This document shows positions 1 to 13,566 of a stretch of DNA of 60,622 bases, one piece after another (positions within the stretch are counted from its first letter, which is position 1; each line of letters opens with the position of its first letter). The stretch is from the IMG/VR virus record IMGVR_UViG_3300043395_002731, positions 1-60,622 of that record, one strand, 5' to 3'. Both the position numbers and the translations under genes were made by a program. The DNA is from a virus. Below the pieces are notes generated by a model. The model was not told the DNA's origin. It was given only the letters and a program-made list of their open reading frames with translations, and did not search any database.

Positions 1-1
1 T

Positions 2-1288
2 GCCGGTGGTTCTGGTGGAGGTGGAGCGAGTGTACAGCCATTAGTACCCGCTTCACCGGCATATGCTACAGGAGGTGCTGGCACGCCCGGACAAGGTAAC
101 AGTGGTGGTAATGGGGGGTTAGTTCCAGGTTTTGGTTATGTAGTTGCTGGTGGTGGTGGTGGTGCTGGCGCTGCGGGTGTTGGACCAACTACACCCGTCA
201 CAGCTGTAAGCAGTGGTGGAGCTGGTCTTTCATCGTCTATAACTGGAACACCAGTAACATACGCTGGCGGTGGGGGTGGGGGGAGACCATTTGCGTCAGG
301 CACACCCGGAGCCGCACTCGGTGGTGATGGGGGTGGTGGTCTAGGTGGTCATGGGAATCAATATACCGCAGGGCCAGGAACTATTAACACTGGAGGTGGT
401 GGTGGAGGTGCTTTAAGCGCCCCAGCATCTCGATCTGGTGCTGGTGGAAGTGGCATTGTTATTATCAAATACAAAAGCAGAAAATTTATCAACACTGTAT
501 ATACTTTTGTTGCTACACAAGCATGGACACCACCTCAGGGTGCTTCAAAGGTAGATTATCTTGTTATTGGTGGGGGTGGTGCTGGTGGTACAAATTCTGG
601 TGGTGGAGGTGGTGCCGGTGGATTTAGAACGGGTACTGATTTTCCAATCACAGCAGGAACTCCAATAACCATTACTGTTGGAGCTGGAGGTGCAGTTACC
701 GCAGCCCCAGCAAGAGGTGGCAATGGAACTGACTCTATTTTCAGCACCATTACTTCTGCTGGTGGTGGGGGTGGTGGTAACCCAAATACAAGTCCATTAA
801 ACAGAGGAGCTGCTGGTGGTTCGGGGGGAGGCGGTGCGGCATATGGTCCAAGCACTTTTACCGGTGGAACTGGTGGTCCGGGTACACCGGGACAAGGCAA
901 CAATGGTGGTGCTGGCTCACCAGTTTCGGGTAGCATCGCCGGTGGCGGTGGAGGTGGTGCCGGTGGAGCAGGGGGTGATGGTGGATCCACTCCATTATCA
1001 GCTGGAGGTGCTGGTGGCGCAGGAGTCTCTTCGGCCATCATGGGATACAGTCAAACTTATGCTGCGGGTGGCGGCGGTAATGGCCTTACGCCCACTGGTG
1101 GATTGGGGGGTTCTGGTATTGGTGGTGATGGCCTTACTACTGGACCAGGAACACCCTTTATTTTAGGAAGATACGCAACGGCTGGCGTTAGACATACCGG
1201 ATCCGGTGGTGGTGGTGGAAGTTCTCCTTCATTATCTCCGCTTGGTGCTGGTGGTGATGGTATAGTAATCGTAAAAATAACTGGATAG
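2..1288 (+). CDS. Glycine-rich tail fibre protein, C-terminal part (5' end outside window)
   Basis: The frame is open from the window edge to a TAG at 1288 (about 428 codons). It consists of long glycine runs broken by short conserved blocks. Around 430-560 a block reading GIVIIKY is followed by W-T-P-P-x-G-A and VDYLVIGGGGAGG, and the protein ends GIVIVKITG. The complete protein at 42741-44705 has the same architecture and the same ending, so this is a paralogue. Such glycine-rich proteins are typical distal adhesins or fibre tips in T4-like phages. That role is inferred from composition and from the neighbouring small tail accessory genes. Confidence 0.75.
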   Translation, partial: AGGSGGGGASVQPLVPASPAYATGGAGTPGQGNSGGNGGLVPGFGYVVAGGGGGAGAAGVGPTTPVTAVSSGGAGLSSSITGTPVTYAGGGGGGRPFASGTPGAALGGDGGGGLGGHGNQYTAGPGTINTGGGGGGALSAPASRSGAGGSGIVIIKYKSRKFINTVYTFVATQAWTPPQGASKVDYLVIGGGGAGGTNSGGGGGAGGFRTGTDFPITAGTPITITVGAGGAVTAAPARGGNGTDSIFSTITSAGGGGGGNPNTSPLNRGAAGGSGGGGAAYGPSTFTGGTGGPGTPGQGNNGGAGSPVSGSIAGGGGGGAGGAGGDGGSTPLSAGGAGGAGVSSAIMGYSQTYAAGGGGNGLTPTGGLGGSGIGGDGLTTGPGTPFILGRYATAGVRHTGSGGGGGSSPSLSPLGAGGDGIVIVKITG

Positions 1289-1303
1289 TTGTAGGAGATT
1301 TGA

Positions 1304-1636
1304 ATGGCACATTTTGCTGAATTGAATGAAAATAACGTAGTATTACGTATCATTGTTGTCGCCGATAGTGATACTTCAGATGCCAATGGTGACGAAAAAG
1401 AAAGTATTGGTATAGCATTTTGTGAAAAGTTACTTGGTGGTCGTTGGATAAAAACTAGCTATAATGGTAAAATTCGTAAACGCTATGCAGCACCAGGAAT
1501 GATCTATTTGCCAGAACACGATCAATTTACTAATCCTAAACCTGGTGATGAATATGAATATAATCCCGAAACGGGCGAATGGATCGTTCCTGGCTTAAAC
1601 GATAATCCATTACGAGTTGAAAGAGTGGGAGAATAA
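1304..1636 (+). CDS. Conserved small phage protein, paralogue of the gene at 44995
   Basis: This 110-residue protein starts MAHFAELNENNVVLRI and contains GGRWIKTSYNG and the block RKRYAAPGMIY. The gene at 44995 shares all these blocks in the same order. AGGAG at 1293-1297 serves as ribosome binding site. In both places the gene lies just downstream of a glycine-rich fibre gene (one small gene intervenes in the second copy), so it is probably a tail-fibre accessory or virion protein. The precise function is unknown. Confidence 0.7.
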   Translation: MAHFAELNENNVVLRIIVVADSDTSDANGDEKESIGIAFCEKLLGGRWIKTSYNGKIRKRYAAPGMIYLPEHDQFTNPKPGDEYEYNPETGEWIVPGLNDNPLRVERVGE

Positions 1637-1640
1637 ATTA

Positions 1641-2021
1641 ATGAGTAGTCCTTCTATACGAGAAATGGCAATTGCTGACAATGTTTTAGTTTACATGAAT
1701 TATCTTGTGAAAACGGGTGACGAAATTGAAGGTCATGCCCATGTGTTTGATCATATAACTTTACTGGCACGTGGCTCAGTGCGAATGGAACACGACAACG
1801 GCAGCAAAGAATACATGGCGCCTTATCTAATCATTACACCTAAAAACATAAAACATAAATTTACCGCTTTGGAAGATAAATGTTTGCTCTGTTGTATACA
1901 TGCCATTCGTGATGGTGATGAACTTGATGATGTAGCACCGCAAGATATTACTCCAGAAAAAGCCATGGAGTTGTTCGCAAAACATCCATTAATACATCAA
2001 GAAGTTTTGAGTAATGAATAG
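1641..2021 (+). CDS. Cupin-fold protein
   Basis: The 126-residue protein has a cupin-like core: G-H-A-H-V-F-D-H at about residues 31-38 supplies candidate metal-binding histidines (H32, H34, H38), followed by a glycine turn and a second block PYLIITPKNIKHKF. The ATG at 1641 is preferred over an in-frame TTG at 1617 because GGGAG lies about 9 bases before it and the TTG lies inside the preceding gene. Cupins can be sugar-processing enzymes or small-ligand sensors; substrate and reaction cannot be read here. Its place in a tail-fibre cassette suggests a role linked to fibres or the cell surface, which is inference. Confidence 0.6.
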   Translation: MSSPSIREMAIADNVLVYMNYLVKTGDEIEGHAHVFDHITLLARGSVRMEHDNGSKEYMAPYLIITPKNIKHKFTALEDKCLLCCIHAIRDGDELDDVAPQDITPEKAMELFAKHPLIHQEVLSNE

Positions 2022-2055
2022 ATAAATTACTAAACATTTTATTAGAGGTGATTGA

Positions 2056-2475
2056 ATGAATAACGAAGATATTTCTTATGCACAGTATTTGATAGGTAGC
2101 AACAACAAACTTGTGTGTGGTATTGACACGGCAATTAAAGCACTTAGACCACATGCTCGTTATGATATGTCGGCATCAGGTGGACACTTTGAGTTCACAC
2201 GTTGGGAAGATGACACAGGCTCAAAGCCGCCAACCAGAGATGAGATTTTTAAAGAATTAGAATACCAGAATAAATTTATCGAATATTGGCAGCATTTTGT
2301 GGATCGTGTAGCGAACTATCCTGATATAGCAGTCACAATAAATAATTTGTGGGAAGCAATTGATTCTGGTGATATTCCGGGAAAAGGAACAAAATTTTAT
2401 CAATCAATCAAAGAGGTGAATGATAAATTCATCAAACCAGAAGGTGAACCACCGGTAAGACCGACATACGAATAA
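2056..2475 (+). CDS. Tail-cassette accessory protein, XkdW-like, paralogue of 41255
   Basis: The 139-residue protein starts MNNEDISYAQYL. It carries ALRPHARY, then W-E-D and PPTRDEIFKELE, then EYWQHFVDRVANYPDI, and ends PEGEPP. The gene at 41255 has the same blocks at nearly the same length and an almost identical leader (GGTGATTGAATGAA). The pattern of an LRP motif followed by a PT-x-EEI motif resembles the XkdW-type domain of small phage tail genes. A chaperone or accessory role for fibres is likely but not shown. Confidence 0.6.
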   Translation: MNNEDISYAQYLIGSNNKLVCGIDTAIKALRPHARYDMSASGGHFEFTRWEDDTGSKPPTRDEIFKELEYQNKFIEYWQHFVDRVANYPDIAVTINNLWEAIDSGDIPGKGTKFYQSIKEVNDKFIKPEGEPPVRPTYE

Positions 2476-2481
2476 TAAATA
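2474..2481 (+). promoter_or_regulatory. Possible T4-type late promoter (AATAAATA)
   Basis: AATAAATA matches seven of eight bases of the T4 late -10 element TATAAATA and sits 31 bases before the ATG of the oxygenase gene. It overlaps the stop codon of the preceding gene, so a chance match in AT-rich DNA is possible. Confidence 0.3.
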
Positions 2482-2512
2482 TTCGTGTAACTAAAATAAA
2501 GTACAATATATT

Positions 2513-3148
2513 ATGCTTAACACTGCTTATCATTTTGCTTGTCCAATTTATTATGCCGAACATCCAGAGTTTCTGAAATCGGTGATACAAGTTTCTGAAG
2601 AAGAATTGGCGAAAGTACACAAAGAAAAAAAAGTCGATGACATATATCCTGTGATGATGACAGGCAATTATTATGAAGACTCAAGGATTCAGGACTTCGT
2701 ACAGTTTGTCGGTCAAACATCTTGGAATATATTAGACAGCCAAGGTTACAATATGCAAAACCTTGATGTGATGTTTAATGAAATGTGGACACAAGAACAC
2801 TATAAGCATTCATTGATGGAACAACATGTACATGGATATGGTTCCCAAATTGTTGGTTTTTATTTTCTCAAAGTTCCAGACAAATCTTCAAGAGTTGTAT
2901 TTCACGACCCACGACCCGGTAAAGTTCAACTTGACCTTTACGAAAAAGATTCATCTATCGCTACGATTGCTAGTCAGATGATTAACTTTGAACCCAAGCC
3001 TGGTCTTTTGATTCTTACAAATTCTTGGTTGGCTCACTCATTTACCCGACACGCATCAAATCAACCAATAAAGTTTGTTCACTTTAATTTGACCGTAGTA
3101 CAAGCACAGACAAACTTTGCGATGAAACCAGCAGACGATATCATATGA
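2513..3148 (+). CDS. Putative 2OG-Fe(II) oxygenase
   Basis: The 211-residue protein has the pattern of the phage-associated 2OG-Fe(II) oxygenase family (TIGR02466/PF13759-like). HVHGYGSQIVGFYFL lies at about 105-119, VVFHDPRP at about 128-135 and PGLLILTNSWLAHSF at about 163-177. H105 or H107, D132 and H175 are candidate iron ligands. Such enzymes hydroxylate proteins or small molecules using 2-oxoglutarate. The gene overlaps the next one by four bases (ATGA), so the two are probably translated together. No strong Shine-Dalgarno sequence precedes it. The substrate is unknown. Confidence 0.7.
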   Translation: MLNTAYHFACPIYYAEHPEFLKSVIQVSEEELAKVHKEKKVDDIYPVMMTGNYYEDSRIQDFVQFVGQTSWNILDSQGYNMQNLDVMFNEMWTQEHYKHSLMEQHVHGYGSQIVGFYFLKVPDKSSRVVFHDPRPGKVQLDLYEKDSSIATIASQMINFEPKPGLLILTNSWLAHSFTRHASNQPIKFVHFNLTVVQAQTNFAMKPADDII

Positions 3149-3387
3149 ACAAATACCGAATTCGTTTTAACAAAAGCAGAGGTCAACCCGGTCGTGGCAC
3201 CGCAGATCATGTATGGCGTGTATTTGAGGGTGACAAAGAATACTTGTTCAAACATCTGAACATAACCGTTCCAGTTCAAAGTGAAAAAGAAGAACAGTCA
3301 GAAGATTGGAATATTGTCTGTAACGGTTATCTTTCAATTGATCGTCAAAACTCAATTGCCATTATTACAGAAAAAGCAACAAATTAG
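3145..3387 (+). CDS. Small hypothetical protein coupled to the oxygenase gene
   Basis: This is an 80-residue basic-start protein with no recognisable domain. It begins MNKYRIRFNKSRG and has a central block HVWRVFEGDKEYLFKHL. Its start overlaps the stop of the oxygenase gene in an ATGA arrangement, which suggests translational coupling. It ends just before a sigma70-like promoter, so it probably closes the transcription unit. Function unknown. Confidence 0.65.
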   Translation: MNKYRIRFNKSRGQPGRGTADHVWRVFEGDKEYLFKHLNITVPVQSEKEEQSEDWNIVCNGYLSIDRQNSIAIITEKATN

Positions 3388-3408
3388 TGTTGTAAAAATA
3401 CAACACGC

Positions 3409-3437
3409 TTGACAAAGATAGCCGCTCATAGTATAAT
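3409..3437 (+). promoter_or_regulatory. Consensus sigma70 promoter with near-zero leader
   Basis: TTGACA at 3409-3414 and TATAAT at 3432-3437 both match the consensus exactly and are separated by 17 bases. The expected start of transcription is near 3444, three bases before the ATG at 3447, so the mRNA would be essentially leaderless. Confidence 0.85.
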
Positions 3438-3446
3438 GTATATACT

Positions 3447-3803
3447 ATGAAAAATCTGCCTTCTGTTGGTTCTACGGTCACCGTAGACTGTCGCTATATT
3501 ACTAAAACGACAACATTTACTGGTGTCGTTATCAAGCCCTATCGTTTTCTAAATGCTAACGAATTCTGTTTGCAAACTGGTAACAAAGAATTTCCAATAT
3601 CTGTTATCAATCTAGCAAATGTTGTTAATCTGAAAATACTTAAAGGTTCAACAACAAATATTCGTAAGTTCAAAGTTGCCGGCTCAAAAGGTGAGTATTT
3701 GGTAACATTATCAAATGAGCATTTTTCTTGCTCTTGTATTGGTTTCAAATATCACAACAAATGTAAGCATATCACTAAGGTAAAAGAAAAGATTACCTCT
3801 TGA
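3447..3803 (+). CDS. SWIM-type zinc-finger protein
   Basis: The 118-residue protein ends in a CxCx8CxH arrangement (C95, C97, C106, H108), the SWIM zinc-finger pattern, within FSCSCIGFKYHNKCKH. The N-terminal 60 residues look like a small beta-barrel fold (VGSTVTVDC, TFTGVVIKPYRF) but this is only an impression. SWIM domains bind DNA or proteins. The gene has its own consensus promoter and no Shine-Dalgarno sequence. It is probably expressed early by host RNA polymerase, which is inference from the promoter type. Confidence 0.7.
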   Translation: MKNLPSVGSTVTVDCRYITKTTTFTGVVIKPYRFLNANEFCLQTGNKEFPISVINLANVVNLKILKGSTTNIRKFKVAGSKGEYLVTLSNEHFSCSCIGFKYHNKCKHITKVKEKITS

Positions 3804-3828
3804 CAAGTGGCTCAACCCTTGATATAAT
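3800..3828 (+). promoter_or_regulatory. Consensus sigma70 promoter with near-zero leader
   Basis: TTGACA at 3800-3805 and TATAAT at 3823-3828 are 17 bases apart. The predicted transcription start near 3835 is three bases before the ATG at 3838. The -35 box overlaps the stop codon of the preceding gene. The geometry is the same as in the promoter at 3409. Confidence 0.85.
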
Positions 3829-3837
3829 GGTATTGTT

Positions 3838-4230
3838 ATGATGATTCGTATATATTCCAGTTCCAAGAAAAAGAAGTTGACGAAGAAGCAATTGCAAGAA
3901 CAGCAAGACTTCATTTCGTCAATCAACAAGATTCCGCTGCCGTCTGGTGGTCGGTTTCCTGCTGCTGCACCGAAGAAAGTAAAAGACAAGCCACTGATGC
4001 CATATCGTGTAAAGCGTGAGGTATCACATGCTCCGAGTCTTCCAGACACTCACAAGGGTGCTTTGACTAAGACTGGTATTATGAAAGACTATCACAAACT
4101 CTCATCTTCTGACCGTGAGATTGTGGCTGATGTAGCATCTTGCACTGCACCGATGCACAAGGGTAATTATGTATACGTTACTCCTGGCATTAATCCGGCA
4201 GGGCTTGGTCGGAAAAACGAAGTGTTATGA
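3838..4230 (+). CDS. Hypothetical basic protein
   Basis: A 130-residue protein, very rich in lysine at its N-terminus (SSKKKKLTKKQLQEQQDF), with a proline-rich middle and a C-terminal block MKDYHKLSSSDREIVADVASC. I recognise no domain. It starts with two consecutive ATG codons and no Shine-Dalgarno sequence, directly downstream of a consensus promoter, so it probably initiates on a leaderless message. The charged N-terminus would suit nucleic-acid or RNA-polymerase binding, but that is only a guess. Confidence 0.65.
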   Translation: MMIRIYSSSKKKKLTKKQLQEQQDFISSINKIPLPSGGRFPAAAPKKVKDKPLMPYRVKREVSHAPSLPDTHKGALTKTGIMKDYHKLSSSDREIVADVASCTAPMHKGNYVYVTPGINPAGLGRKNEVL

Positions 4231-4242
4231 TTTTGACAATGC

Positions 4243-4271
4243 TTGACAAAGTGTCCGAATCATGTTACACT
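4243..4271 (+). promoter_or_regulatory. Sigma70-like promoter
   Basis: TTGACA at 4243-4248, a 17-base spacer and TACACT at 4266-4271. The expected start is near 4278, giving a leader of about 28 bases with GGAGG at 4293-4297. This contrasts with the two nearly leaderless promoters just upstream. Confidence 0.7.
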
Positions 4272-4305
4272 ATCATTTCTACTGTTGATAATGGAGGCCT
4301 TTATT

Positions 4306-4749
4306 ATGGCACGTACTAAAGCAGGTGATTTTACACCTTATCAAAAACTCTTGACTCTAATGCAAGAGGGTGATATCGTTACCAAAGACGAGATTGAATC
4401 TAAACTTGGTAATGACATTTATATTTACAAACTTTCTACTTACATTTGGGAAGTCAAAACAAAGACGCCCGGCGTGGTGAAAGTTCTTAAAAACGGTCGT
4501 ACTGTGACTGGCTATCAAATCACAAATTCAGGTGAAGTGAAAGCATATCTGAAATCTTGTGGTGCTGATAAGTTTGTTCCTGGTCAGGGCTTACTAAAGC
4601 CTTCTACCAGTAAGTTCGCAAACAAGCCTGTCAAATCGTTGGCAGCATTGAGTGCAAAACCAGTTAAGGCTAAAGCAGCAAAGCCTGCAAAAGTCGTTGC
4701 ACCTGTTGCACCTGTGATTGAGGATGAAGTAACCGAAATCACCGAATAA
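4306..4749 (+). CDS. Hypothetical winged-helix-like protein with basic Ala/Lys/Pro tail
   Basis: A 147-residue protein. The first 85 residues (YQKLLTLMQEGDIVTKDEIESKLG, then IYKLSTYIWEVK and GYQITNSGEV) have the helix-turn-helix and wing order of a small winged-helix domain. After residue 105 follows a low-complexity AKPVKAKAAKPAK tail that ends acidic. The start at 4306 is set by GGAGG eight bases upstream; an upstream in-frame start would lie inside the promoter. DNA binding is plausible but unproven. Confidence 0.65.
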   Translation: MARTKAGDFTPYQKLLTLMQEGDIVTKDEIESKLGNDIYIYKLSTYIWEVKTKTPGVVKVLKNGRTVTGYQITNSGEVKAYLKSCGADKFVPGQGLLKPSTSKFANKPVKSLAALSAKPVKAKAAKPAKVVAPVAPVIEDEVTEITE

Positions 4750-4800
4750 TCAGTTTCGGGGTATCATGCGAATTTGACGCTAGATATTAAACGACAACTA

Positions 4801-4814
4801 CTGTCGGGAGACAG
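4801..4814 (+). other. GNRA-loop hairpin in a 5' leader
   Basis: CTGTC, loop GGGA, GACAG forms a perfect five-base-pair stem with a GNRA-type tetraloop. It lies 31 bases before the ATG at 4846 and is not followed by a T run, so it is not a terminator. It may stabilise the mRNA or affect translation of the membrane-protein gene. Confidence 0.45.
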
Positions 4815-4845
4815 CAAATTGCGCCCCTTCTTTTATGAGGTGAAA

Positions 4846-5088
4846 ATGTCAAAATTCAAAGCATGGCTTGTTGACAAGTATTTACAACTTGAAAATCAAG
4901 CCATTCAAGCAATTACTACAGCAAATTTTTATGGTAACCTGTTCACTGAACGTCAAAAGTTCTACATCATTGCCACGTTCATGGCTCTTCTGGCTATGGC
5001 CGGTGCATCTGGCGCTGTTCAGTTTATTGGTTTGGTTTATATTATGGGTAAAATGACACCGGAGGACAAAGATGAAAACGAAAAGTAA
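4846..5088 (+). CDS. Small membrane protein
   Basis: An 80-residue protein. An amphipathic N-terminal half (MSKFKAWLVDKYLQLEN) is followed by a hydrophobic stretch at about 39-70 (FYIIATFMALLAMAG and VQFIGLVYIMG), enough for one or two membrane passes, and a charged end PEDKDENEK. GAGG at 4837-4840 selects the ATG at 4846. It overlaps the lipoprotein gene by 17 bases. A membrane protein overlapping a lipoprotein recalls holin or spanin pairs, but neither role is shown by the sequence. Confidence 0.65.
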   Translation: MSKFKAWLVDKYLQLENQAIQAITTANFYGNLFTERQKFYIIATFMALLAMAGASGAVQFIGLVYIMGKMTPEDKDENEK

Positions 5089-5347
5089 GTTGATTTTTCT
5101 TGTGCCGCTGTTGCTATTAACGGCGTGTAACACAATTACTAAAGATCCTGTACACAATCCACAGGGATTAAATAATGAAGATTTAATCAAAACGCAGATT
5201 GCAAAAATCGAAGCAATACAGCGTGAAAATGATCGTCGTGAGCAAGAACTCAAAATGCAACATCTCAAAGAGTTGCATCAAGTTCAGATACAAAGTAAAT
5301 CTTCACCACAAACTGTGAATACAAACTGCCGCTTTCTCTGCTTCTGA
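5072..5347 (+). CDS. Predicted lipoprotein (possible spanin-like)
   Basis: The first 18 residues form a lipoprotein signal (MKTKSKLIFLVPLLLLTA) ending in the lipobox L-T-A-C with the lipidated cysteine at 19. Residues about 40-75 form a charged helix likely to be a coiled coil (IAKIEAIQRENDRREQEL). The gene starts within the upstream membrane-protein gene, and such nested pairs are typical of phage spanins. The protein has no proline-rich segment like Rz1, so the spanin role is only a possibility. Confidence 0.65.
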   Translation: MKTKSKLIFLVPLLLLTACNTITKDPVHNPQGLNNEDLIKTQIAKIEAIQRENDRREQELKMQHLKELHQVQIQSKSSPQTVNTNCRFLCF

Positions 5348-5928
5348 TGAATATCTTTTATCTTCATCCTGATCCACGGAAATGCGCCGAATACCACTGT
5401 GATAAACACGTGGTGAAAATGATTATTGAGTATGCACAACTCATGTCAACGGCGCATCGTATTCTTGATGGTAAAGAGTATTACGATTTGACGGCAAACA
5501 ATCGTAAAATTAAACGCTGGCTTTTGCCCGATAAACGTGAAGAAGTTTTGATGAAAGCATCACACATAAGTCATCCATCAAATATTTGGGCACGACAGAA
5601 TGACAGCAATTACACATGGCTGTATCAGATGTGGTATGCATTGTGTAAAGAATACACTCATCGCTATGGTAAAACACACTCGGTTGAAACACGACTAGTG
5701 AGTACAATAATTGCGCTACCGAACAACATAAGTGAAGGTGTGTTTACTGAACCAACACCAGCTATGCCTGATGATGTGAAAGTTCCTAAAGCAGGACCAC
5801 GTGGAATGTTACATTATGACTCTCTTGCTTCATATCGTAATTACTATATAAAGAATAAGACACACTTGGCCAACTGGAAGAAGCGTCCAGTACCAAGTTG
5901 GTACCTTGAGAATATAAGACCTATTTGA
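5347..5928 (+). CDS. Conserved phage protein with CDKHVVK motif
   Basis: A 193-residue protein beginning MNIFYLHPDPRKCAEYHCDKH and continuing VVKMIIEYAQLMSTAHRILDG. I recognise the N-terminal motif from many phage genomes but know no proven function. Conserved Cys, Asp and His residues near the start (C13, H17, C18, D19, H21) could bind metal. A later block HPSNIWARQNDSNYTWLY is also characteristic. The start overlaps the preceding stop by one base (TGATG). The 3' end overlaps the antisense endonuclease gene by eight bases. Confidence 0.65.
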   Translation: MNIFYLHPDPRKCAEYHCDKHVVKMIIEYAQLMSTAHRILDGKEYYDLTANNRKIKRWLLPDKREEVLMKASHISHPSNIWARQNDSNYTWLYQMWYALCKEYTHRYGKTHSVETRLVSTIIALPNNISEGVFTEPTPAMPDDVKVPKAGPRGMLHYDSLASYRNYYIKNKTHLANWKKRPVPSWYLENIRPI

Positions 5929-6472
5929 TGTCAGATTTTAGTTTGCATTTATCAAAATGCCAGCGCATCATTGCCCTATGTTGTCCAATTTTATTACAAT
6001 GAACGCATCGCACTTGTTTTTTGTTGTAGATTATTCTTGCTTTTTTTATTTTTGATTTAGATTCTTCCGTTTGTAATGCATTCTCAACACCATACTTTGA
6101 TAAACAAGTTTTTGACGCCTTTATTCTATTGTTAAAATTTGAAGATTTTCCTTTGTTTGCCAATGAAATTTTTAATTTAGTTTCTTCTGAATGTGGTCGT
6201 ATAGTGCCAGATGTTCCTTCACCACCTTCAGTTTTATTTAATAAAATACCACCATCAGGATTTTTACGTGCCCACCAACGAATCAATCTTCGTTCAAGTG
6301 CTAATGCACCAATTTCTGATAATTTAGTTTCAAGGAAAACTATTTTGGATTTATCTTTTGGTATCTTTATATTACCGTGTGGTGAATATGCTCTATTGCC
6401 TTTACCTTTACCGATATAGTATGGTGTGCCGTCAGACTTTCTGATGTAGGCGTAAACGTAATAAATATACAT
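5921..6472 (-). CDS. GIY-YIG homing endonuclease with NUMOD3 and zinc finger
   Basis: The 183-residue protein has YVY at 5-7, YIG at 19-21 and R27 of the GIY-YIG nuclease core. An E in ALERRLIRWW follows, then a NUMOD3-type DNA-binding helix (HSEETKLKISLANKG), and a C-terminal CxxC...H...C motif (CVHC and HFDKC). It is a free-standing, Seg-like mobile gene inserted on the strand opposite to its neighbours. Its tail overlaps the preceding gene, and it has its own ribosome binding site (AAAGGA) and a perfect T4-type late promoter match at 6538-6531. Such enzymes cut a homologous site in related phages and spread by repair. Confidence 0.9.
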   Translation of the reverse strand: MYIYYVYAYIRKSDGTPYYIGKGKGNRAYSPHGNIKIPKDKSKIVFLETKLSEIGALALERRLIRWWARKNPDGGILLNKTEGGEGTSGTIRPHSEETKLKISLANKGKSSNFNNRIKASKTCLSKYGVENALQTEESKSKIKKARIIYNKKQVRCVHCNKIGQHRAMMRWHFDKCKLKSDIK

Positions 6473-6530
6473 GCTGACATTCCTTTACAATGTTAGAGTA
6501 TGTGCGGGCTGCTACCCGGCGACATACACC

Positions 6531-6538
6531 TATTTATA
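6531..6538 (-). promoter_or_regulatory. T4-type late promoter, TATAAATA
   Basis: On the minus strand positions 6538-6531 read TATAAATA, an exact match to the T4 late promoter element. It lies 59 bases before the ATG of the antisense GIY-YIG gene, which fits a normal leader. Confidence 0.55.
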
Positions 6539-6554
6539 AGAATGGAGATTTTAA

Positions 6555-6860
6555 TTGCCGGTATATGATTTCTTAAACACTGAAACAGGTGATACATTTG
6601 AGAAACTTCTGAGCATTTCTGCCAAAGAAGAATATCTCAAAGAAAATCCACACATTCAACAAGTTCATCTTGGCGCCATGTCAATTGTCAGTGGCGTATC
6701 AATCACTGGTAAAGTACCAGACGGTTTCAAAGAAGTTCTGTCTAAAGTATCAGAAAGTCACAAACAATCTTCAGTTGCCAATAAACACGGTAAAAAAGGT
6801 GTCAAAGAATCACAAACACAAAGAATTGTAGATAAACATTTAGGAAAGTTTGGGCAGTAA
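6555..6860 (+). CDS. FmdB-like small phage protein, TTG start
   Basis: A 101-residue protein beginning (M)PVYDFLNTETGDTFEKLLSI. That is the beta-hairpin start of the FmdB zinc-ribbon family, but the cysteines of the true zinc ribbon are absent. The start is TTG at 6555 with GGAG ten bases upstream; no ATG is suitably placed. The C-terminal half is helical and lysine-rich. I know similar proteins from marine T4-like phages only as hypotheticals. Confidence 0.6.
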   Translation: MPVYDFLNTETGDTFEKLLSISAKEEYLKENPHIQQVHLGAMSIVSGVSITGKVPDGFKEVLSKVSESHKQSSVANKHGKKGVKESQTQRIVDKHLGKFGQ

Positions 6861-6894
6861 TTACATTATGTGAACCTTAGCACAAGGAGCATAT

Positions 6895-7074
6895 ATGGCT
6901 AAAAAATCTTTGCAGAAAAAAGTAGCACTACTGAATGACTACATCACAAAAGAGATTGAAAGAGAAATGACCACAGAAATAACACAAATAGAAAAAGAAG
7001 ATCCTGCAAAGATAGAAAAGAAGTATCCAAGACAAAGTTATCCACACCACAGCCGAAATCACTACTTTACATAA
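6895..7074 (+). CDS. Small hypothetical protein (59 aa)
   Basis: ATG at 6895 follows AAGGAG at 6884-6889. The product starts MAKKSLQKKVALLNDYITKE, is highly charged and helical, and ends in a basic, aromatic tail (PHHSRNHYFT). Its TAA overlaps the ATG of the exonuclease gene by one base, so the two are probably co-translated. Function unknown; a partner of the exonuclease is possible. Confidence 0.6.
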   Translation: MAKKSLQKKVALLNDYITKEIEREMTTEITQIEKEDPAKIEKKYPRQSYPHHSRNHYFT

Positions 7075-7739
7075 TGCGAATATTTGAACATGTAAGTTTA
7101 CCACAGTTACAATTTGACTTAACAGCGGAAACCACCGATAGTGGTAGACTGTATACTACGCCAGAAGGCAACAAGTATAAGTCTATCACTACGGTGCTTT
7201 CTCATTACAATAAGCAAGGCATATATGAATGGCGTAAAGCAGTTGGTGAGGAACGAGCAAATGAAGTGTCACGCAAGGCATCAAATCGTGGTACAAAGGT
7301 ACACAAGATATGTGAAGACTACCTGAAGAATGAAATAAACGAATTCAAGATGCAGTTATTGATGCCTGACTTGAAAGAATTATTCTTCAAAATCAAACCT
7401 AAAATTGATGAAAATGTTGGTCAAGTTTATGCACAAGAACAAGCACTTTATTCCGACAAATATCGTATTGCTGGCCGTGTAGACTTAATTGCCGAATGGA
7501 ATGGCAAATTGTCAGTCATTGACTATAAGACTTCCACGAAACAAAAAGATGAAGACTACATTCAAAACTACTTTATGCAGTGTACAGCATATGCCCTGAT
7601 GTTTGCCGAAAGAACTGGTATTTGGATTGATGACATTGTGGTATTGATTGCTACCGAAGAAGGACCCGCACAGGTGTTTGAGCGACAGATACATGATTAT
7701 CGGCAACCATTGATTGAGTATATTGATAAATATGCTTGA
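7074..7739 (+). CDS. PD-(D/E)XK exonuclease
   Basis: The 221-residue protein has the Cas4/RecB/MGME1-type nuclease core. The motifs are RGTKVHKICEDYL (H77, E81), then IAGRVDLIAEWNGKLSVIDYKTSTK split as D137 and D150-x-K152, then QNYFMQCTAYALMFAE as the QxxxY motif. Such enzymes degrade or trim DNA ends in recombination, host DNA breakdown or replication repair. It is coupled to the 59-residue gene upstream. Family assignment is firm, exact role is not. Confidence 0.85.
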   Translation: MRIFEHVSLPQLQFDLTAETTDSGRLYTTPEGNKYKSITTVLSHYNKQGIYEWRKAVGEERANEVSRKASNRGTKVHKICEDYLKNEINEFKMQLLMPDLKELFFKIKPKIDENVGQVYAQEQALYSDKYRIAGRVDLIAEWNGKLSVIDYKTSTKQKDEDYIQNYFMQCTAYALMFAERTGIWIDDIVVLIATEEGPAQVFERQIHDYRQPLIEYIDKYA

Positions 7740-7754
7740 CAAGTCGGAGGCACT

Positions 7755-8300
7755 ATGCTATCATTCAAACAACACGTACAACTAGATGAAGGTAATCCAC
7801 TTCAACAAAAAGTAAATAAACATTTGGCCTCCGGGCATAGTATTGGAGCATTGTCTCCCGAAGGTCCTCACACGAATACTCCGGAGAAGAAAAAAGCAGC
7901 CCACACTGAGATGCAGAAAGACCTAGAACATGCCCGTAAATCTGGACATATAGGTGGTTGGTCTGGACCACATAAAGGTGAATATCAATACGGTGGTGAA
8001 CATGAAGTGAGTCATGAAGGCTCATATGTAGTTCATGCCGCTGAAAAAGGTAAAGAAGGTCATAATAAAATGGTTCATGCTTTAAAAAATGTTGGCAACA
8101 AGCATAAACAAGAATCTATTCTGGCTGTTCATCACACCTCACATGAAGGTAGTTGGCACCATCTTGATGCTTCTGCTAAATCAGGTAAAGTTGAAAACCA
8201 AGGTAAAGTGCATTACAATGTTAAAGTGAAGCCTGGTGAAGAAAGAGGTAAAGGTAGAACAAGGCTTGGTCCAAATCAAACTTTTACAGCATATAAGTAA
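7755..8300 (+). CDS. Hypothetical glycine/histidine-rich protein
   Basis: A 181-residue basic protein with CGGAGG at 7745-7750 as ribosome binding site. It starts MLSFKQHVQLDEG, a type of start common in marine phage virion proteins. The middle has GGWSGPHKGEYQYGGEHEVSHEGSYVV and later KHKQESILAVHH. The order resembles the small DUF3293-type domain (Trp/Glu, Ser/Val block, then KYxQxSIL), but I cannot confirm it. It is very rich in His, Lys and Gly and contains no cysteine. Confidence 0.55.
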   Translation: MLSFKQHVQLDEGNPLQQKVNKHLASGHSIGALSPEGPHTNTPEKKKAAHTEMQKDLEHARKSGHIGGWSGPHKGEYQYGGEHEVSHEGSYVVHAAEKGKEGHNKMVHALKNVGNKHKQESILAVHHTSHEGSWHHLDASAKSGKVENQGKVHYNVKVKPGEERGKGRTRLGPNQTFTAYK

Positions 8301-8314
8301 AGAGATATTTTATA

Positions 8315-8626
8315 ATGAGTTACTTGAAAGAATTAATTGATGAGATAAAGAAGAGTCACAAAGATTCTTTATTATTTTCGGAATTGTCTAAGTATCGTGC
8401 AAGATACATGGACTATTATGATAAAAATGTTTCTGCTCATCCAAAGAGTGGATTTTTTCATTGTATGAGTTGGGATGCCGAAAGACGCAACGAGTTTCAT
8501 AAAGAATTTGATAAACTAAAATATAAAGTTATTGATGATCCAGTTGAACCTCTTCATGATTATGATTTGCAAGAAACTGGTATGAACAGATTACATGAAT
8601 TGGAGAGAAAAATAAAAAGGGCATAA
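8315..8626 (+). CDS. Hypothetical protein (103 aa)
   Basis: A 103-residue, charged, mostly helical protein starting MSYLKELIDEIKKSHKDSLL. It has a central aromatic block (YRARYMDYYDKN) and a C-terminal helix (MNRLHELERKIKRA). No domain recognised. The stop overlaps the next ATG by one base (TAATG). Confidence 0.55.
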   Translation: MSYLKELIDEIKKSHKDSLLFSELSKYRARYMDYYDKNVSAHPKSGFFHCMSWDAERRNEFHKEFDKLKYKVIDDPVEPLHDYDLQETGMNRLHELERKIKRA

Positions 8627-8805
8627 TGCTATACGCACTCATTGTAACGGTTATCATTTCAGGTTCAGTTACAGAATCACAATGGAAAACTTTTGATACA
8701 TATGAGGAATGCCATGAAGTGGCATCAACAATCGTGCGTTATAGAGATTACATCGTGGCACGTTGTGTGCTACAAGAAAGAATTGTTGTAACTCCTTCGA
8801 AGTGA
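8626..8805 (+). CDS. Small secreted or membrane-anchored protein (59 aa)
   Basis: The product starts MLYALIVTVIISGSVTES, a short hydrophobic segment suited to a signal or anchor. It continues WKTFDTYEECHEVASTIV and has a second cysteine in ARCVLQERI, so a disulfide outside the cytoplasm is possible. Its last codons lie at the 5' edge of the tmRNA acceptor piece, only a few bases before the predicted helix strand at 8809-8814. Message and tmRNA precursor therefore overlap. Confidence 0.55.
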   Translation: MLYALIVTVIISGSVTESQWKTFDTYEECHEVASTIVRYRDYIVARCVLQERIVVTPSK

Positions 8806-9040
8806 AGGCATTCTGGACGGCGGTTCAATTCCGCCCACCTCCACCAAAAGCACATAGTTGTCCTAGATGAAAGAAACCTCTGAGGGCTCTAGTGGGGATT
8901 GTGTGCTTTTGATGGGGGTGACCTGGTTTCGACAGGGTGAGATAGTGGAGAAGGCAACACAGTAGGCGATGACTGTAAATCAAGCAAATAAATTATCTGC
9001 AAACGATAATTACTACGCAATGGCTGCTTAAATAGCCTTG
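8790..9040 (+). ncRNA. ssrA: Circularly permuted (two-piece) tmRNA
   Basis: The 3' acceptor piece comes first. It has a T stem GGCGG (8819-8823), loop TTCAATT and CCGCC (8831-8835), then acceptor strand CACCTCC (8836-8842) and ACCA (8843-8846). The 5' piece starts GGGGGTG (8914-8920), which pairs with CACCTCC over seven pairs including one G-U, followed by the tmRNA signature GGTTTCGACAGGG. The spacer 8847-8913 is closed by a perfect ten-base-pair stem (8845-8854 with 8902-8911). The tag frame at 8999-9031 reads ANDNYYAMAA then stop; its stop lies in a hairpin (9018-9040) like helix P5. AGGGTG (8934-8939) can pair with CATTCT (8809-8814) as start of helix P2. Outer ends are approximate. With host SmpB it would rescue stalled ribosomes and tag proteins for proteolysis. 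Confidence 0.93.
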
Positions 9041-9103
9041 CTGGGGTTTAAGTGGGCTGTACCTTATTACCAAAACAGTCCACATCATATTCAGAGATAC
9101 ATC

Positions 9104-9814
9104 ATGCGTGTTTATATTGGTCCTTATACAAATTGGTTTGGTCCTTACCAATTAGCAGAACTACTTTGCTTTTGGGTAAAAAAAGTACCTGATGAGTACG
9201 GATTCAAACGGCATCCAGAATGGGTTCATGATTTCGGCACTTGGCTGGCTGAAGATAAAAACGGCAAATCATCTTGGTTGAATGATTTCTTTAATTGGAT
9301 TGACAGTCACAAGGAACGCAAAATCAAAGTACGCATTGACAAGTACGATACATGGTCAATGGATCACACATTGGCAAATATTATTTTGCCAATGCTCAAA
9401 CAACTTCAAGCAACAAAACACGGTTCACCTATGGTTGACATTGAAGACGTGCCAGAAGAACTTCGTATAACTGGTTATGATGATGGCTCATCACAATTCA
9501 GATTGAAGTTTGAAGATGATGAGCAATTTCAAAAAGAATCATGGGATATCACACATCGTCGGTGGGAATGGGTGTTGAATGAAATGATTTTTGCCTTTGA
9601 ACATCTGCTTGACGATTCATGGGAAGAAGCATATCGTTCGGGTGTGATTGATATGAAGTTTGTTCCTTGTGAAGACAATCCTAAATTATCAACTATGGTA
9701 GATGGTCCTAACCACACATACCAATGTGATTATGATGGTATGAACAAAGTATATAATCGCATGGATAATGGTTTTCGTCTATTTGGTAAATACTACCGTG
9801 GTTTGTGGGATTAA
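9104..9814 (+). CDS. Conserved hypothetical phage protein (236 aa)
   Basis: It starts MRVYIGPYTNWFGPYQLAEL and has KYDTWSMDHTLANIILPML, VDIEDVPEELR and HRRWEWVLNEMIFAFEHLL. I know this set of motifs from many marine T4-like phages but know no function. The ATG at 9104 is preferred to an in-frame TTG at 9038, because that start would lie within the tmRNA. Rich in Trp, Tyr and acidic residues; no signal or membrane segment. Confidence 0.75.
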   Translation: MRVYIGPYTNWFGPYQLAELLCFWVKKVPDEYGFKRHPEWVHDFGTWLAEDKNGKSSWLNDFFNWIDSHKERKIKVRIDKYDTWSMDHTLANIILPMLKQLQATKHGSPMVDIEDVPEELRITGYDDGSSQFRLKFEDDEQFQKESWDITHRRWEWVLNEMIFAFEHLLDDSWEEAYRSGVIDMKFVPCEDNPKLSTMVDGPNHTYQCDYDGMNKVYNRMDNGFRLFGKYYRGLWD

Positions 9815-9819
9815 AATAA

Positions 9820-9826
9820 CTAAATA
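9820..9826 (+). promoter_or_regulatory. Possible late promoter motif CTAAATA
   Basis: CTAAATAA lies in the 66-base gap before the gene at 9881. The same CTAAATA[AG] occurs at 45426 and 51814, also in intergenic gaps 20-60 bases before a gene. It is a variant of the T4-type late element. Confidence 0.35.
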
Positions 9827-9880
9827 AGTATACTGGCATCACACACACAATCGCCAGTAAACACACACAGGAATAAACAC

Positions 9881-10153
9881 ATGAGTAATCTAACACCGTT
9901 TGAGATTCGTCTTGAACTTCTTAAAATGGCCAAAGAACTTTTATTGGAAGATTTTATTGCCAATAAAGAACGGCTAATCAATGAATGGCATGTAAAGGTA
10001 GAGTCCGCTAAACTAAACGGACAAGCAATACCTGATCATCCAGCCTTTCCAACTTATCCCTCAGAGACAGAAATCATATCTAAGGCACAAGCCTTGAATG
10101 GATTCGTTTCTAATATCACAGCAGAAAAAACACAAAGCAAAAAAGCTGCCTGA
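9881..10153 (+). CDS. Hypothetical helical protein (90 aa)
   Basis: It starts MSNLTPFEIRLELLKMAKEL and is helical for the first 50 residues, followed by a proline segment (PDHPAFPTYPSETEII) and a final helix with a lysine tail. I have seen similar small proteins in marine T4-like phages as hypotheticals. A UUCG-loop hairpin follows directly after the stop. Confidence 0.6.
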   Translation: MSNLTPFEIRLELLKMAKELLLEDFIANKERLINEWHVKVESAKLNGQAIPDHPAFPTYPSETEIISKAQALNGFVSNITAEKTQSKKAA

Positions 10154-10162
10154 ATGGGAACG

Positions 10163-10180
10163 GAGGTGCTTCGGCATCTC
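10163..10180 (+). other. Seven-base-pair hairpin with UUCG tetraloop
   Basis: GAGGTGC (10163-10169), TTCG, GCATCTC (10174-10180) gives a seven-pair stem with one G-T pair, closed as C(UUCG)G, the very stable tetraloop class. No T run follows, so it is not an intrinsic terminator. In T4 such hairpins between genes protect or punctuate mRNA; it lies between the stop at 10153 and AAGGAG of the hydrolase gene. Confidence 0.7.
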
Positions 10181-10200
10181 TCTAACTAAAAAGGAGAAAT

Positions 10201-10752
10201 ATGCGTTACATCACACTATTAATTTGTAGTATCTTTGCAGCATTCGTTGTATACATCGGTCATGCCGCCGCACAAATAAATGTGCCAGTTCAACCCAAAG
10301 TACAACTAGAAGATTTATCACCACAAGCAAGATCAGAAGTTGAGTGCCTTGCCCAGAACATGTATTTTGAAGCAGGTTTAGAACCAAGATTAGGTCAACT
10401 TGCTGTAGCATTTGTTACACACAATCGTGTACACTCTGGAACATTTCCAGACACATATTGTGGTGTAGTCAAACAAAAAGTCGGCACCGTTTGCCAGTTT
10501 TCATGGGTATGTGAAAATCGTCCTAAGGATATGATGCGAAAAGGCCTCTTGACATTAGAGAGCAATTCGTTGTACAATAGTGTTACTGAGTTAGCATTGG
10601 CGTTTTATCTTTATACTGAGAAGTTTAAAGATCCAACAAGAGGTGCTTTGTTCTTTCATGCAGACTATGTAAAACCTGGTTGGAATAATATGAAGTACAC
10701 TGCACAAATAGGCAGACATTTATTCTACAATAAAGCAAAGAAGAGTTCATGA
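10201..10752 (+). CDS. Secreted SleB-type cell-wall hydrolase
   Basis: The 183-residue protein has an N-terminal export signal (RYITLLICSIFAAFVVYIG, cleavage likely near AAA-Q at 22-25). The cell-wall hydrolase domain (PF07486, SleB/CwlJ type) follows: CLAQNMYFEAGLEP with E57 as probable catalytic acid, AVAFVTHNRV, FPDTYCGVV, CQFSWVCENRP and ALFFHADYVKPGW. These enzymes cleave peptidoglycan and probably act in lysis. The Sec-type signal means it may reach the periplasm without a classical holin. It overlaps the next gene region by ATGA. Confidence 0.85.
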   Translation: MRYITLLICSIFAAFVVYIGHAAAQINVPVQPKVQLEDLSPQARSEVECLAQNMYFEAGLEPRLGQLAVAFVTHNRVHSGTFPDTYCGVVKQKVGTVCQFSWVCENRPKDMMRKGLLTLESNSLYNSVTELALAFYLYTEKFKDPTRGALFFHADYVKPGWNNMKYTAQIGRHLFYNKAKKSS

Positions 10753-10778
10753 GTATTTTATCAAGTAAAAAGGAGAAG

Positions 10779-11000
10779 ATGATGGAAAAAGGATTGAGTA
10801 GTATAACCACAGTATCATTTACTTTGGTTTTACTTTCAATCGTTGCTGCAACATGTCTTTATGGTTTGAATGACCGTAAACTGATGGCAGCAAATATTGA
10901 AAACGCTATTGCAAAAGGCATTGACCCATTGGCTGTACGGTGTTCATACGCCAAGAGTGATGATATTGTTTGTATTGCACACGCTGCTAATCGTAAATAA
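10779..11000 (+). CDS. Small single-pass membrane protein next to the hydrolase
   Basis: The ATG at 10779 (or 10782) follows AAAGGAG closely; an in-frame ATG at 10749 overlapping the hydrolase stop is less likely. The product has one membrane segment (TVSFTLVLLSIVAATCLYGL), then DRKLMAANIENAIAKGIDPL and a C-terminal part with two cysteines (RCSYA and IVCIAHAA). I know similar proteins in marine T4-like phages as hypotheticals. Its place next to the hydrolase allows a lysis role, unproven. Confidence 0.65.
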   Translation: MMEKGLSSITTVSFTLVLLSIVAATCLYGLNDRKLMAANIENAIAKGIDPLAVRCSYAKSDDIVCIAHAANRK

Positions 11001-11014
11001 AGGGAGATTATATT

Positions 11015-11311
11015 ATGAGTTTCAATAGTGACGAACATTCATTCATGTTTCGCTTTCATTCCGCTGAAGATGAAAGAGATTTAGAAATGAACTGCAATGC
11101 CTTATACCTTGGTGACATCTTTGATAGATTCCGTGATTTCTTGCAAGGATGTGGTTATCAGATTGATGGTCAGATTGAAGTTGTGCCTTTTGAAAAGGAA
11201 GAGGACTATATTATACTTGGTGATCAGCCTGAATATGATTTCAGCAACATACCACAAAATAACTGGCCATTTAGTTCAACAATGAACGATACAATACCGC
11301 CTTCAGCATAA
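11015..11311 (+). CDS. Hypothetical acidic protein (98 aa)
   Basis: It starts MSFNSDEHSFMFRFHSAEDE, with GGGAG upstream. The block LYLGDIFDRFRDFLQGCGYQIDG is followed by EVVPFEKEEDY. No domain recognised. Its stop overlaps the ATG of gp33 by one base (TAATG), which places it in the same translation unit as the 33-59-32 block. Confidence 0.6.
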   Translation: MSFNSDEHSFMFRFHSAEDERDLEMNCNALYLGDIFDRFRDFLQGCGYQIDGQIEVVPFEKEEDYIILGDQPEYDFSNIPQNNWPFSSTMNDTIPPSA

Positions 11312-11535
11312 TGCCTACAAAAGATGAGATGCTGAAGTTCTCTATGCAGATAGAGGGTTTGGTGGCCAATACAGATTACACATATCTTGAGGCCATTACC
11401 GAACACTGTAAAGAGACAGGTTTGGAGTTAGAGGTTGCTGCTTCACTCATAACTCCAAATCTCAAAGCAAAAATACACGAACAAGCGGAGCGTTTGAATA
11501 TGTTAAAAGTGAAAGGCAATCGTTTACCGATATGA
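11311..11535 (+). CDS. gp33: Late-transcription coactivator gp33
   Basis: A 74-residue protein with the gp33 pattern: FSMQIEGLV, then YLEAITEHCKETGLELEVAASLI, LKAKIHEQAERLNMLK and a final RLPI. In T4, gp33 bridges RNA polymerase to the sliding clamp and lets the gp55 sigma factor fire late promoters. The gene order 33-59-32 is the T4 order, which strengthens the call. It overlaps gp59 by four bases. Its presence fits the TATAAATA-like motifs in this window. Confidence 0.8.
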   Translation: MPTKDEMLKFSMQIEGLVANTDYTYLEAITEHCKETGLELEVAASLITPNLKAKIHEQAERLNMLKVKGNRLPI

Positions 11536-12143
11536 CGGGATATGAAACATTTTGTTTATACTCTTCTCTCAAACTACACTTCAATTCAGATTCTTACGAT
11601 TACTTTAAGTACAATGGTAAAGTAAGCACAAGTATTGGTGCGTTTGAGAATCGTAAAGACAAATGGCACTTTTACAAACTCAGCCGGAGATTCACAAATG
11701 TTGACATATGCCGTGATTTTGTTGTTGCTAATTTGGTTAATGACCAGAATGTTTGGGTAGGACACCTATTAACTAATGAGGCTGATGCTGAGTATCGTAA
11801 ACGCCAGAAAGTGATTCAATCATTGACCTACACTTTCACAAATGAAATTGAATCATTAATGAATCATAGTAATCCAAATGATTTGTTTATGTCGCATGAA
11901 GGTGAGTATCCAGACTTGCTCATCAAATTGTTGCATGAAGAAGTCTCACTTGAAACTATTTGCATACTCAATCAAGTTCTGGGTTTCCTATCATCATGGG
12001 ATCGTAAGATTGGTGATACCATTCATTATCCAAACATCAGTAAAAGAATAAAGAAATACACACCGTTCATACCATTTGAGCCAACGAAATATAAACTCAT
12101 ACTAAAGAAAGAATATGATGCGAATACAGAAAATATATCTTGA
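11532..12143 (+). CDS. gp59: Helicase loader gp59
   Basis: The 203-residue protein begins MTGYETFCLYSSLKLHFNSD and continues YDYFKYNGKV, FENRKDKWHFYKLS, VANLVNDQNVWVGHLL, SLTYTFTNEIESL and IKKYTPFIPF. These match the gp59 family in order and length (T4 gp59 is 217 residues). gp59 loads the gp41 helicase on gp32-coated single-stranded DNA. Its position between gp33 and gp32 is the T4 arrangement. The 3' end overlaps the HAD gene by 29 bases. Confidence 0.85.
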   Translation: MTGYETFCLYSSLKLHFNSDSYDYFKYNGKVSTSIGAFENRKDKWHFYKLSRRFTNVDICRDFVVANLVNDQNVWVGHLLTNEADAEYRKRQKVIQSLTYTFTNEIESLMNHSNPNDLFMSHEGEYPDLLIKLLHEEVSLETICILNQVLGFLSSWDRKIGDTIHYPNISKRIKKYTPFIPFEPTKYKLILKKEYDANTENIS

Positions 12144-12660
12144 TATGGATGGTGTGTTGTCTGATTTCAATCAAAGATACAAAGAAATCTTCAAACAAAA
12201 AGCATTAAGCACACGTGAACGTGGTGAAAAGCATGATGATAAATGGAATCAGTTCGTAGAAGGTAAAAACTTTGAAACACTTGATTGGTATCCTGGTGGT
12301 AAAGAACTATTGAAATACATCATCTCTCTTGATATACCTGTAGAGATACTTTCTTCTTCTGGTGGCCGTATGCATCATGAAGAGGTAAAGCGACAGAAAA
12401 AGGTTTGGTTGAAAAGACATCACATTGACTTTACAGCCAATATCGTACCTGGTCGTCATTTGAAAGCAACTTATGCCAAATCAGATATTATTCTCATTGA
12501 TGATACCCAAGATGTTATTGATGATTTTAATATGGCAGGCGGCATAGGCATTCTTCACAAAGAAACGGCTAAAACGATAAAAACTGTGCAGTCTGTTCTT
12601 GACGACACATATATAAAAGTATATAATGAATCATGTGGACAAGATGCACATACAATTTAA
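12115..12660 (+). CDS. HAD-superfamily phosphatase (5' nucleotidase-like)
   Basis: A 181-residue protein with HAD motif I at 10-14 (DMDGV, nucleophile D10 and acid D12) and motif IV around IILIDDTQDVIDDFNMAGG. LSSSGGRMHHEE in the middle serves as motif II, and K near 115-120 is a candidate motif III lysine. Probably acts on nucleotides or DNA/RNA ends, as phage HAD enzymes often do. It is nested between gp59 and gp32, overlapping gp59. Start may be the first or second of two adjacent ATGs. Confidence 0.8.
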   Translation: MMRIQKIYLDMDGVLSDFNQRYKEIFKQKALSTRERGEKHDDKWNQFVEGKNFETLDWYPGGKELLKYIISLDIPVEILSSSGGRMHHEEVKRQKKVWLKRHHIDFTANIVPGRHLKATYAKSDIILIDDTQDVIDDFNMAGGIGILHKETAKTIKTVQSVLDDTYIKVYNESCGQDAHTI

Positions 12661-12686
12661 TACAACTTTTTATACGAGGTAACTAA

Positions 12687-13544: not shown

Positions 13545-13566
13545 TCCTCCACTTAATCAACTGCGA

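Follow-up and report, generated by a model that had tools for sequence, protein, structure and literature searches.

How a phage comes to carry similar fibre genes at two loci is the question raised by the virus record IMGVR_UViG_3300043395_002731, a linear stretch of 60,622 bases that is referred to here as the window. A preliminary description of the sequence took its two groups of glycine-rich (Gly-rich) fibre and small genes, cassettes A (positions 1-2475) and B (41255-45363), for two shuffled copies of one cassette that had arisen by recombination of adhesion modules, perhaps with a wider host range as the outcome. The window is from a T4-like phage, and our analyses indicated that it probably carries interchangeable units at the two loci, each a fibre tip plus its partner genes, in which the partners are tied to the tips and one partner family, MAHFAEL (MAH), may act as a chaperone. 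The case is one of modular tail-fibre mosaicism, a well-known kind of evolution, and not a new system.

All the genes described in the two cassettes are on the plus strand, and their open reading frames (ORFs) were located where the preliminary description had placed them. Locus A is situated in the interval from a T4-type RNase H gene to gp32. The window opens inside the Gly-rich fibre gene glyA (2-1288; phrog_2295, two Gly-rich domains), of which it holds only the 3' part. The remainder was supplied by contig G001, which is from the same virus (100% identity to the window at 14296-34295 and 99.99% at 1-14295), continues 29 kb upstream of window base 1 and contains glyA complete, at 579 amino acids (aa). 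After glyA come mahA (1304-1636; MAH family, phrog_7759), the cupin-like partner gene cupA (1641-2021; Pfam Cupin_2 at 13.4 bits, below the cutoff of 27.2), mnneA (2056-2475), assigned to the A type of MNNE genes by pairwise identity and tree, and a 2-oxoglutarate (2OG)-Fe(II) oxygenase gene (2513-3148; PF13759 at 39.2 bits, cutoff 27). With the G001 sequence included, cassette A in full reads repA (a repeat fibre), gly0 (a 282-aa Gly-rich ORF), glyA, mahA, cupA, mnneA and the oxygenase.

Locus B lies in a fibre region that has neck genes as its end, and we read two units there. The first, B1, consists of a repeat fibre (35450-36118, a repB paralogue at 39% identity), a small gene at 36131, a 1420-aa fibre with DUF7483 and beta-propeller repeats (36472-40734), a tail-fibre assembly chaperone that follows this fibre (40747-41223; Phage_tail_APC, PF16778, at 77.2 bits, exceeding the cutoff of 26.6; PHROG annotation tail fiber assembly) and mnneB (41255-41674), a B-type MNNE gene by identity, gene order and tree. 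The second, B2, is cassette B proper: repB (41694-42326; repeat fibre, phrog_18673, tail fiber), sandB (42330-42713; a small predicted sandwich-type gene in the wording of the preliminary description, placed here as an ORF and by gene order), glyB (42741-44705; a Gly-rich fibre with two Gly-rich domains), xkdB (44725-44976; a short relative of the MNNE genes by comparison with shuffled sequences, phrog_21526) and mahB (44995-45363; phrog_7759). The preliminary description had begun cassette B with mnneB. We consider it more likely that mnneB closes unit B1, because A-type MNNE genes at locus B directly follow the end of a Gly-rich fibre in three contigs (G003, G008 and G011).

Evidence for exchange at locus A came from 25 A loci that were collected through the oxygenase at 2513, one of them being G001 itself. 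DNA comparison with G001 covered four of the other 24 (L161, L163, L164 and L166); as for the rest, L165 looks like L164, the left flanks of L162 and L167 are short, and identity of the oxygenase is 59-67% in the other 17. In L161, L163, L164 and L166, respectively, similarity to G001 ended 35, 41, 57 and 56 nucleotides (nt) into the second fibre gene, at codons 12-19, and resumed 11, 19, 19 and 19 nt before the oxygenase, which is 81-98% identical to that of G001 and, as a conserved gene, bounds the exchanged block on the right. In none of these four relatives did mahA, cupA or mnneA have a colinear match. The only further similarity, apart from the colinear blocks, linked the glyA body to the first fibre of L164 (139 nt, 72%). 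Everything to the left of the break is similar as well in L161 and L163 (gly0 at 83% and 94%), so that each of these differs from G001 by a single block; for L164 and L166, similarity at the start of the second fibre forms an isolated stretch of 72-82 nt at 89%. The small gene that precedes the oxygenase also varied among the 24 other A loci (NHPA in 13, MAH in four, another ORF in four, absent in two and unreadable in one), and it was an MNNE gene in none of them, as read from ORF starts. One locus, L166, has the order fibre, MAH, fibre, NHPA; the NHPA protein has a C-terminal part in common with the MAH family (phrog_7759, E 4e-4). Together, these data indicated that the fibre body and the partner genes at locus A differ together as a block. 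Near DNA relatives of window positions 1-3400 among named phages were limited to four Melnitz records, with 90 nt at 75.5%.

Locus B gave a comparable picture. Contig G002 departs from the window after the mnneB stop codon (41676) and rejoins it at 45380, past mahB and ahead of the conserved gene just right of the cassette (45454-45789). The MNNE genes at this locus were compared in a gene-order table of 17 of the 20 contigs with such genes (all but G015, G017 and G019; G005, G008, G009 and G020 are partial), of which 15 differ from the window's own virus. These are counts of contigs and not of lineages, because several contigs are near-identical (G004-G006; G009 and G010; G016 and G018; G011 and G020). 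Ten of the 15 carry an A-type gene at locus B, four a B-type gene and one, G002, both, in tandem and 32 bases apart (21469-22334, B type first); the MNNE gene of G020 is cut and was typed by identity. In a tree of 13 rows the A and B types each had 100/100 support, and mnneA did not group with mnneB: it fell in the A clade among genes that other phages carry at their B locus, its nearest relative being the second copy in G002 (91%). The similarity between the two takes in 43 leader bases and stops two bases past the stop codon. The mnneA gene at locus A would thus stem from the type carried by relatives at locus B. The sharp-edged blocks at locus A, found in all four relatives compared, and the alternative MNNE types at locus B lend support, as far as sequence comparison goes, to the recombination of adhesion modules that had been proposed in the preliminary description.

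From these observations we propose that a unit would start with a repeat or connector fibre, continue with at least one distal fibre (here Gly-rich and adhesin-like) and finish with short partner genes, which may be MAH, MNNE/XkdW-like, cupin, assembly chaperone or oxygenase genes. Two such units, B1 and B2, would occupy the neck-side fibre region, and a third, A, the interval between RNase H and gp32. Exchange would proceed by homologous recombination in conserved anchors, namely the first 12-19 codons of a fibre gene and the stretch before the oxygenase, and the partner genes would travel with a tip owing to a role in its folding, assembly or modification.

The neighbours of the MAH genes bear on this last step. 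One scan of viral contigs gave at least 588 confirmed MAH relatives, and the best 80 of these loci, near-duplicates included, were analysed; neighbour counts omit ORFs with 18% or more proline, which avoids the antisense of Gly-rich genes. Directly upstream of MAH, 36 of the 80 loci have a 2OG oxygenase, 20 a Gly-rich ORF and 10 an XkdW-like gene; some other gene takes this place in 10, and four have no upstream gene. A Gly-rich ORF lay no more than three genes from MAH in 60/80, versus 140/447 for genes farther away at the same loci, figures that are not corrected for relatedness. Similar arrangements occur in named phages: in Bellamy, gene 33 (33% Gly) is followed by the MAH gene 34, and in HTVC008M an ORF of about 300 aa (33% Gly) is followed by a gene containing MAH.

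Of the alternatives to interchangeable units, the one that survives best, although we consider it unlikely, is that the small genes are virion tip proteins or unrelated passengers that lie near fibres through belonging to a hypervariable island. Neither MAH nor MNNE has a functional annotation. For the MNNE genes, five structure models (confidence 63.8-86.8) gave no usable match in a fold search (best Z 3.4), and the best relative by sequence among solved structures, at E 0.2, was not credible. The host-recognition islands of T4-like phages are described in PMC7029224 as containing many genes of other kinds, and the MAH gene of phage S-SSM5 follows an oxygenase and a ferrochelatase gene and does not adjoin an annotated fibre. 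Against this alternative, the order XkdW-like, oxygenase, MAH recurs (28/80 loci), as does the order Gly-rich, XkdW-like, MAH (8/80), and the partner genes differ together with the fibre body at locus A. In addition, mnneA is under purifying selection relative to its G002 relative (nonsynonymous divergence, dN, 0.057; synonymous divergence, dS, 0.48).

Whether the MAH proteins are chaperones was addressed mainly through a structure model. MAH proteins are 110-122 aa long. No Pfam family matched mahA at E up to 1 and there was no NCBIfam match, mahB matched DUF1579 alone in Pfam, below cutoff, and the function of phrog_7759 is given as unknown; the best relative by sequence among solved structures, at E 1, was not credible. 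The MAH model had a pLDDT of 92.4 and no significant match in the PDB. In a Foldseek search of a library of 350,542 chains, chains 7ypx_a of phage Pam3 and 5yvq_B of phage Mu (Tfa) ranked third and seventh of 31 weak matches (E 2.9 and 4.9), and upon VIA realignment of 69 chains to the model these were the only two to reach Z 2 (Z 4.8 and 2.2). The alignment to 7ypx_a spans 58 aa at 2.9 A and is limited to model residues 1-81. Both chains (7ypx_a has 162 residues) were taken as fibre chaperones from their lengths and titles. Among BFVD models, the 14 matches with an E of 0.001 or lower were without exception uncharacterised or unnamed, and a named tail assembly chaperone came at rank 26 (E 0.06). 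The scores alone prove nothing, and yet the emergence of two fibre chaperones from a library of this size is suggestive. We tentatively put forward, at slightly less than even chances, that MAH serves fibres as a chaperone, much as gp25 does in Pam3.

A more far-reaching version of this idea strikes us as doubtful. It holds that XkdW-like/MNNE, oxygenase and MAH genes would together form a widespread, unnamed maturation kit for Gly-rich tips, with MAH as a new chaperone family (varied N-terminal domains on one C-terminal part) and the oxygenase modifying the fibre; tip and kit would be exchanged as a block between T4-like aquatic phages, and kit genes would move between the neck-side region and the RNase H-gp32 site.

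The picture drawn in the preliminary description, in which one ancestral cassette was duplicated within a phage lineage and its copies were then rearranged, is in our judgement quite improbable, although part of its basis held. All three pairs of genes on which it relied do share ancestry by alignment: identity is 52% over 136 columns for the two MNNE genes and 61% over 96 columns for the two MAH genes, and the four comparisons of A with B domains of the Gly-rich fibres gave z 16-22. The likeness of the fibres exceeds that expected from composition, because none of 200 residue shuffles reached the real score, and both pass the PF21722 (Gly_rich_2) cutoff of 24.3 bits (glyA 115.8, glyB 103.8). 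A duplication might also fit the MAH tree. An alignment of 67 rows (A4) comprised the two window genes and 65 of the 66 loci that remained after filtering at 95%, L004 being omitted as equal to mahB. An 80% filter reduced it to 56 rows, and in the resulting tree, for which the bootstrap had not settled, mahA had a branch of 1.58 within a six-row group that holds mahB (99/93; the fork next to mahB 96/44). Against the duplication of a whole cassette stand the separate MNNE clades, with the affinity of mnneA for the B-locus genes of other phages, so that this pair at least has a separate history. The two domains of glyA, moreover, are closer to each other (score 613) than to the domains of glyB (476-535), and glyA and glyB begin with different N-terminal anchors.

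The shuffled order itself largely dissolved. Cassette A, with its start from G001, and cassette B are colinear for repeat fibre, Gly-rich fibre and MAH; the parts are not all the same, the cupin being found only in A and the sandwich gene only in B, and the differences in order that remain are the position of MNNE and the extra genes. The apparent reordering arose largely because the window cuts off the start of A and because of where the units are taken to begin. Of the repeat fibres, repA scored z 47.1 to the fibre at 55902 and only z 10.2 to repB against residue shuffles. The weak likeness of gly0 to the other Gly-rich domains (z 1.5-3.8 versus shuffles) did not establish it as a copy of them, and a common origin of the small genes at 36131 and 42330 had no support (z 0.8, with 44 of 200 shuffles as high).

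The similar leaders claimed for the paired genes were borne out for MNNE. The MNNE genes share AGGTGATTGAATGAA, which runs into the start codon and has just two matches in the window at up to two mismatches (0.30 expected; two or more matches in 2 of 100 shuffles), and the MAH genes share only AGGAGAT, a ribosome-site-like string. As a shared late promoter, TATAAATA was not enriched in the window (two found versus 4.93 expected); the string precedes MNNE in G007 and G010 and repA in G001. The gene labelled XkdW-like, xkdB, proved homologous to each of the MNNE genes (z 9.9 and 7.6), a relationship on which the preliminary description was silent. None of mnneA, mnneB and xkdB matched Pfam XkdW (E up to 1), and the XkdW likeness of the three genes is presumed, in keeping with that label.

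That the window is a chimeric assembly joining cassettes of different genomes is highly improbable: its first base does fall within a repetitive Gly-rich gene, and G001 and G012, which come from a single metagenome and otherwise match it (G012 being 100% identical to 34276-60622 and extending 3.5 kb beyond), end and start at 34276-34295 with a 20-base overlap, but G016 (window 33418-35805) and G002 (33417-35036) align colinearly across this break and G014 carries both the A and the B locus on one contig.

Several observations weigh against the reading of interchangeable tip-and-partner units. No recombination event was observed, and in L164 and L166 the first fibre also has a different body, so these loci do not hold a single differing block. 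A recent move of mnneA was not shown, its dS to the G002 relative being 0.48 versus 0.70 for mnneB and G002. Judging from the tree, MAH may have been duplicated within the lineage, because mahA shares the six-row group with mahB. The 80 MAH loci are uncorrected for relatedness, and the S-SSM5 gene does not lie next to an annotated fibre. As regards the chaperone, no sequence profile names MAH as a tail-fibre chaperone and the fold scores are weak (Foldseek E 2.9 and 4.9; Z below 8). Even so, interchangeable units remain the explanation that we consider probable, and within it MAH as a chaperone family for Gly-rich tips is a possible and the most promising step.

The partner genes of cassette A have features of their own. 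Close relatives of cupA are few, at three loci besides G001: one lies just before a homologue of the gene at 45454, and two lie after an ORF resembling the chaperone at 40747. The order Gly-rich, MAH, cupin occurs at locus L075. The oxygenase (TIGR02466 at 46.4 bits, below its cutoff of 62.5) retains three His residues that are common to all 44 aligned rows; it lacks many residues that are conserved in the other rows, and an Arg common to 42 rows aligns to a gap. On G001, in window orientation, the genes before base 1 are RNase H (PF09293), a cytidylyltransferase-like gene, a family 2 glycosyltransferase, a dTDP-sugar isomerase, an NAD epimerase, a ClpP-like gene, a 72-aa ORF, repA, gly0 and the start of glyA. 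Just upstream of cassette A, outside the window, there is thus a series of surface-sugar genes together with the ClpP-like protease (G001 36634-39801).

In the fibre region, a repeat-fibre family of the SGNNI/RGNNIVAGTITGN type recurs at 35450-36118, 41694-42326 and 55613-56642, the last directly preceding a neck-type gene. The region also contains a 1756-aa protein (46054-51324) that consists for the most part of degenerate internal repeats (ANAAFIHANASF type). The neck-type genes are at 56647 (phrog_211) and 58267 (phrog_460). Two homing-endonuclease-like genes were found, one at 57597-58181 (plus strand; GIY-YIG and NUMOD3) and one at 5921-6472 (minus strand; NUMOD3). The former sits between the two neck-type genes and is missing in 5/5 contigs that show both neighbours (G002, G009, G010, G016 and G020).

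These results define precise natural edges of fibre-tip exchange in T4-like phages that have not been cultured, and they suggest for phrog_7759, with its at least 588 confirmed relatives, a function that can be tested. Should MAH indeed serve as a chaperone for Gly-rich tips, sense could be made of many unnamed genes that neighbour the fibres of aquatic phages, and fibre and partner would have to be read as pairs in sequence-based host prediction.

Compared with known systems, cassette A resembles the long tail fibre genes 34-38 of T4, which lie beside rnh, in being near T4-type RNase H and gp32, a likeness of gene position only. The fibres here are between RNase H and gp32 on the RNase H strand, whereas the T4 fibre genes flank rnh on its other side and are encoded on the opposite strand. 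According to a note in the T4 record, gene 38 is a fibre assembly gene in T4 and an adhesin in T2-type phages. Cassette B is in a region, 36-57 kb, across which relatives diverge and which adjoins the neck genes. In this it is like the host recognition cluster of pelagimyophages and cyanomyophages, which PMC7029224 places between VrlC and gp14; the gene in the candidate left-border position here (29219-33370) matches phrog_358, of unknown function.

The kinds of genes are also like those of marine phage metaviromic islands, for which Table 1 of PMC3909814 gives frequencies (tail fibre 12, Fe(II) oxygenase 8, XkdW 4, tail fibre assembly 4 and gp38 adhesin 3); gene order and block edges come from the present analysis. 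Oxygenases of the 2OG type that resemble prolyl hydroxylase are described in PMC12774648 as widespread in phages of marine bacteria. In the literature searched, which was available in part, included PMC9608196, PMC3909814, PMC7029224, PMC12774648, PMC9004378 and PMC8986868, and was not searched by family number, neither the MAH family nor the order XkdW-like, oxygenase, MAH was named.

Another close parallel may be the myocyanophage Pam3, with its gp24 fibre and gp25 chaperone (PDB 7YPX). MAH is shorter than gp25, its match to the structure is confined to part of the model, and any binding of MAH to a fibre is putative. According to PMC9608196, gp25 embraces the Gly-rich end of the fibre in a 3:3 complex, and mass spectrometry of Pam3 virions detected gp24 and not gp25. 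The Pam3 fibre ends, like the Gly-rich fibres described here, in a Gly-rich tip and has a small co-expressed chaperone gene, and it is to 7ypx_a, taken as gp25, that the MAH model aligns.

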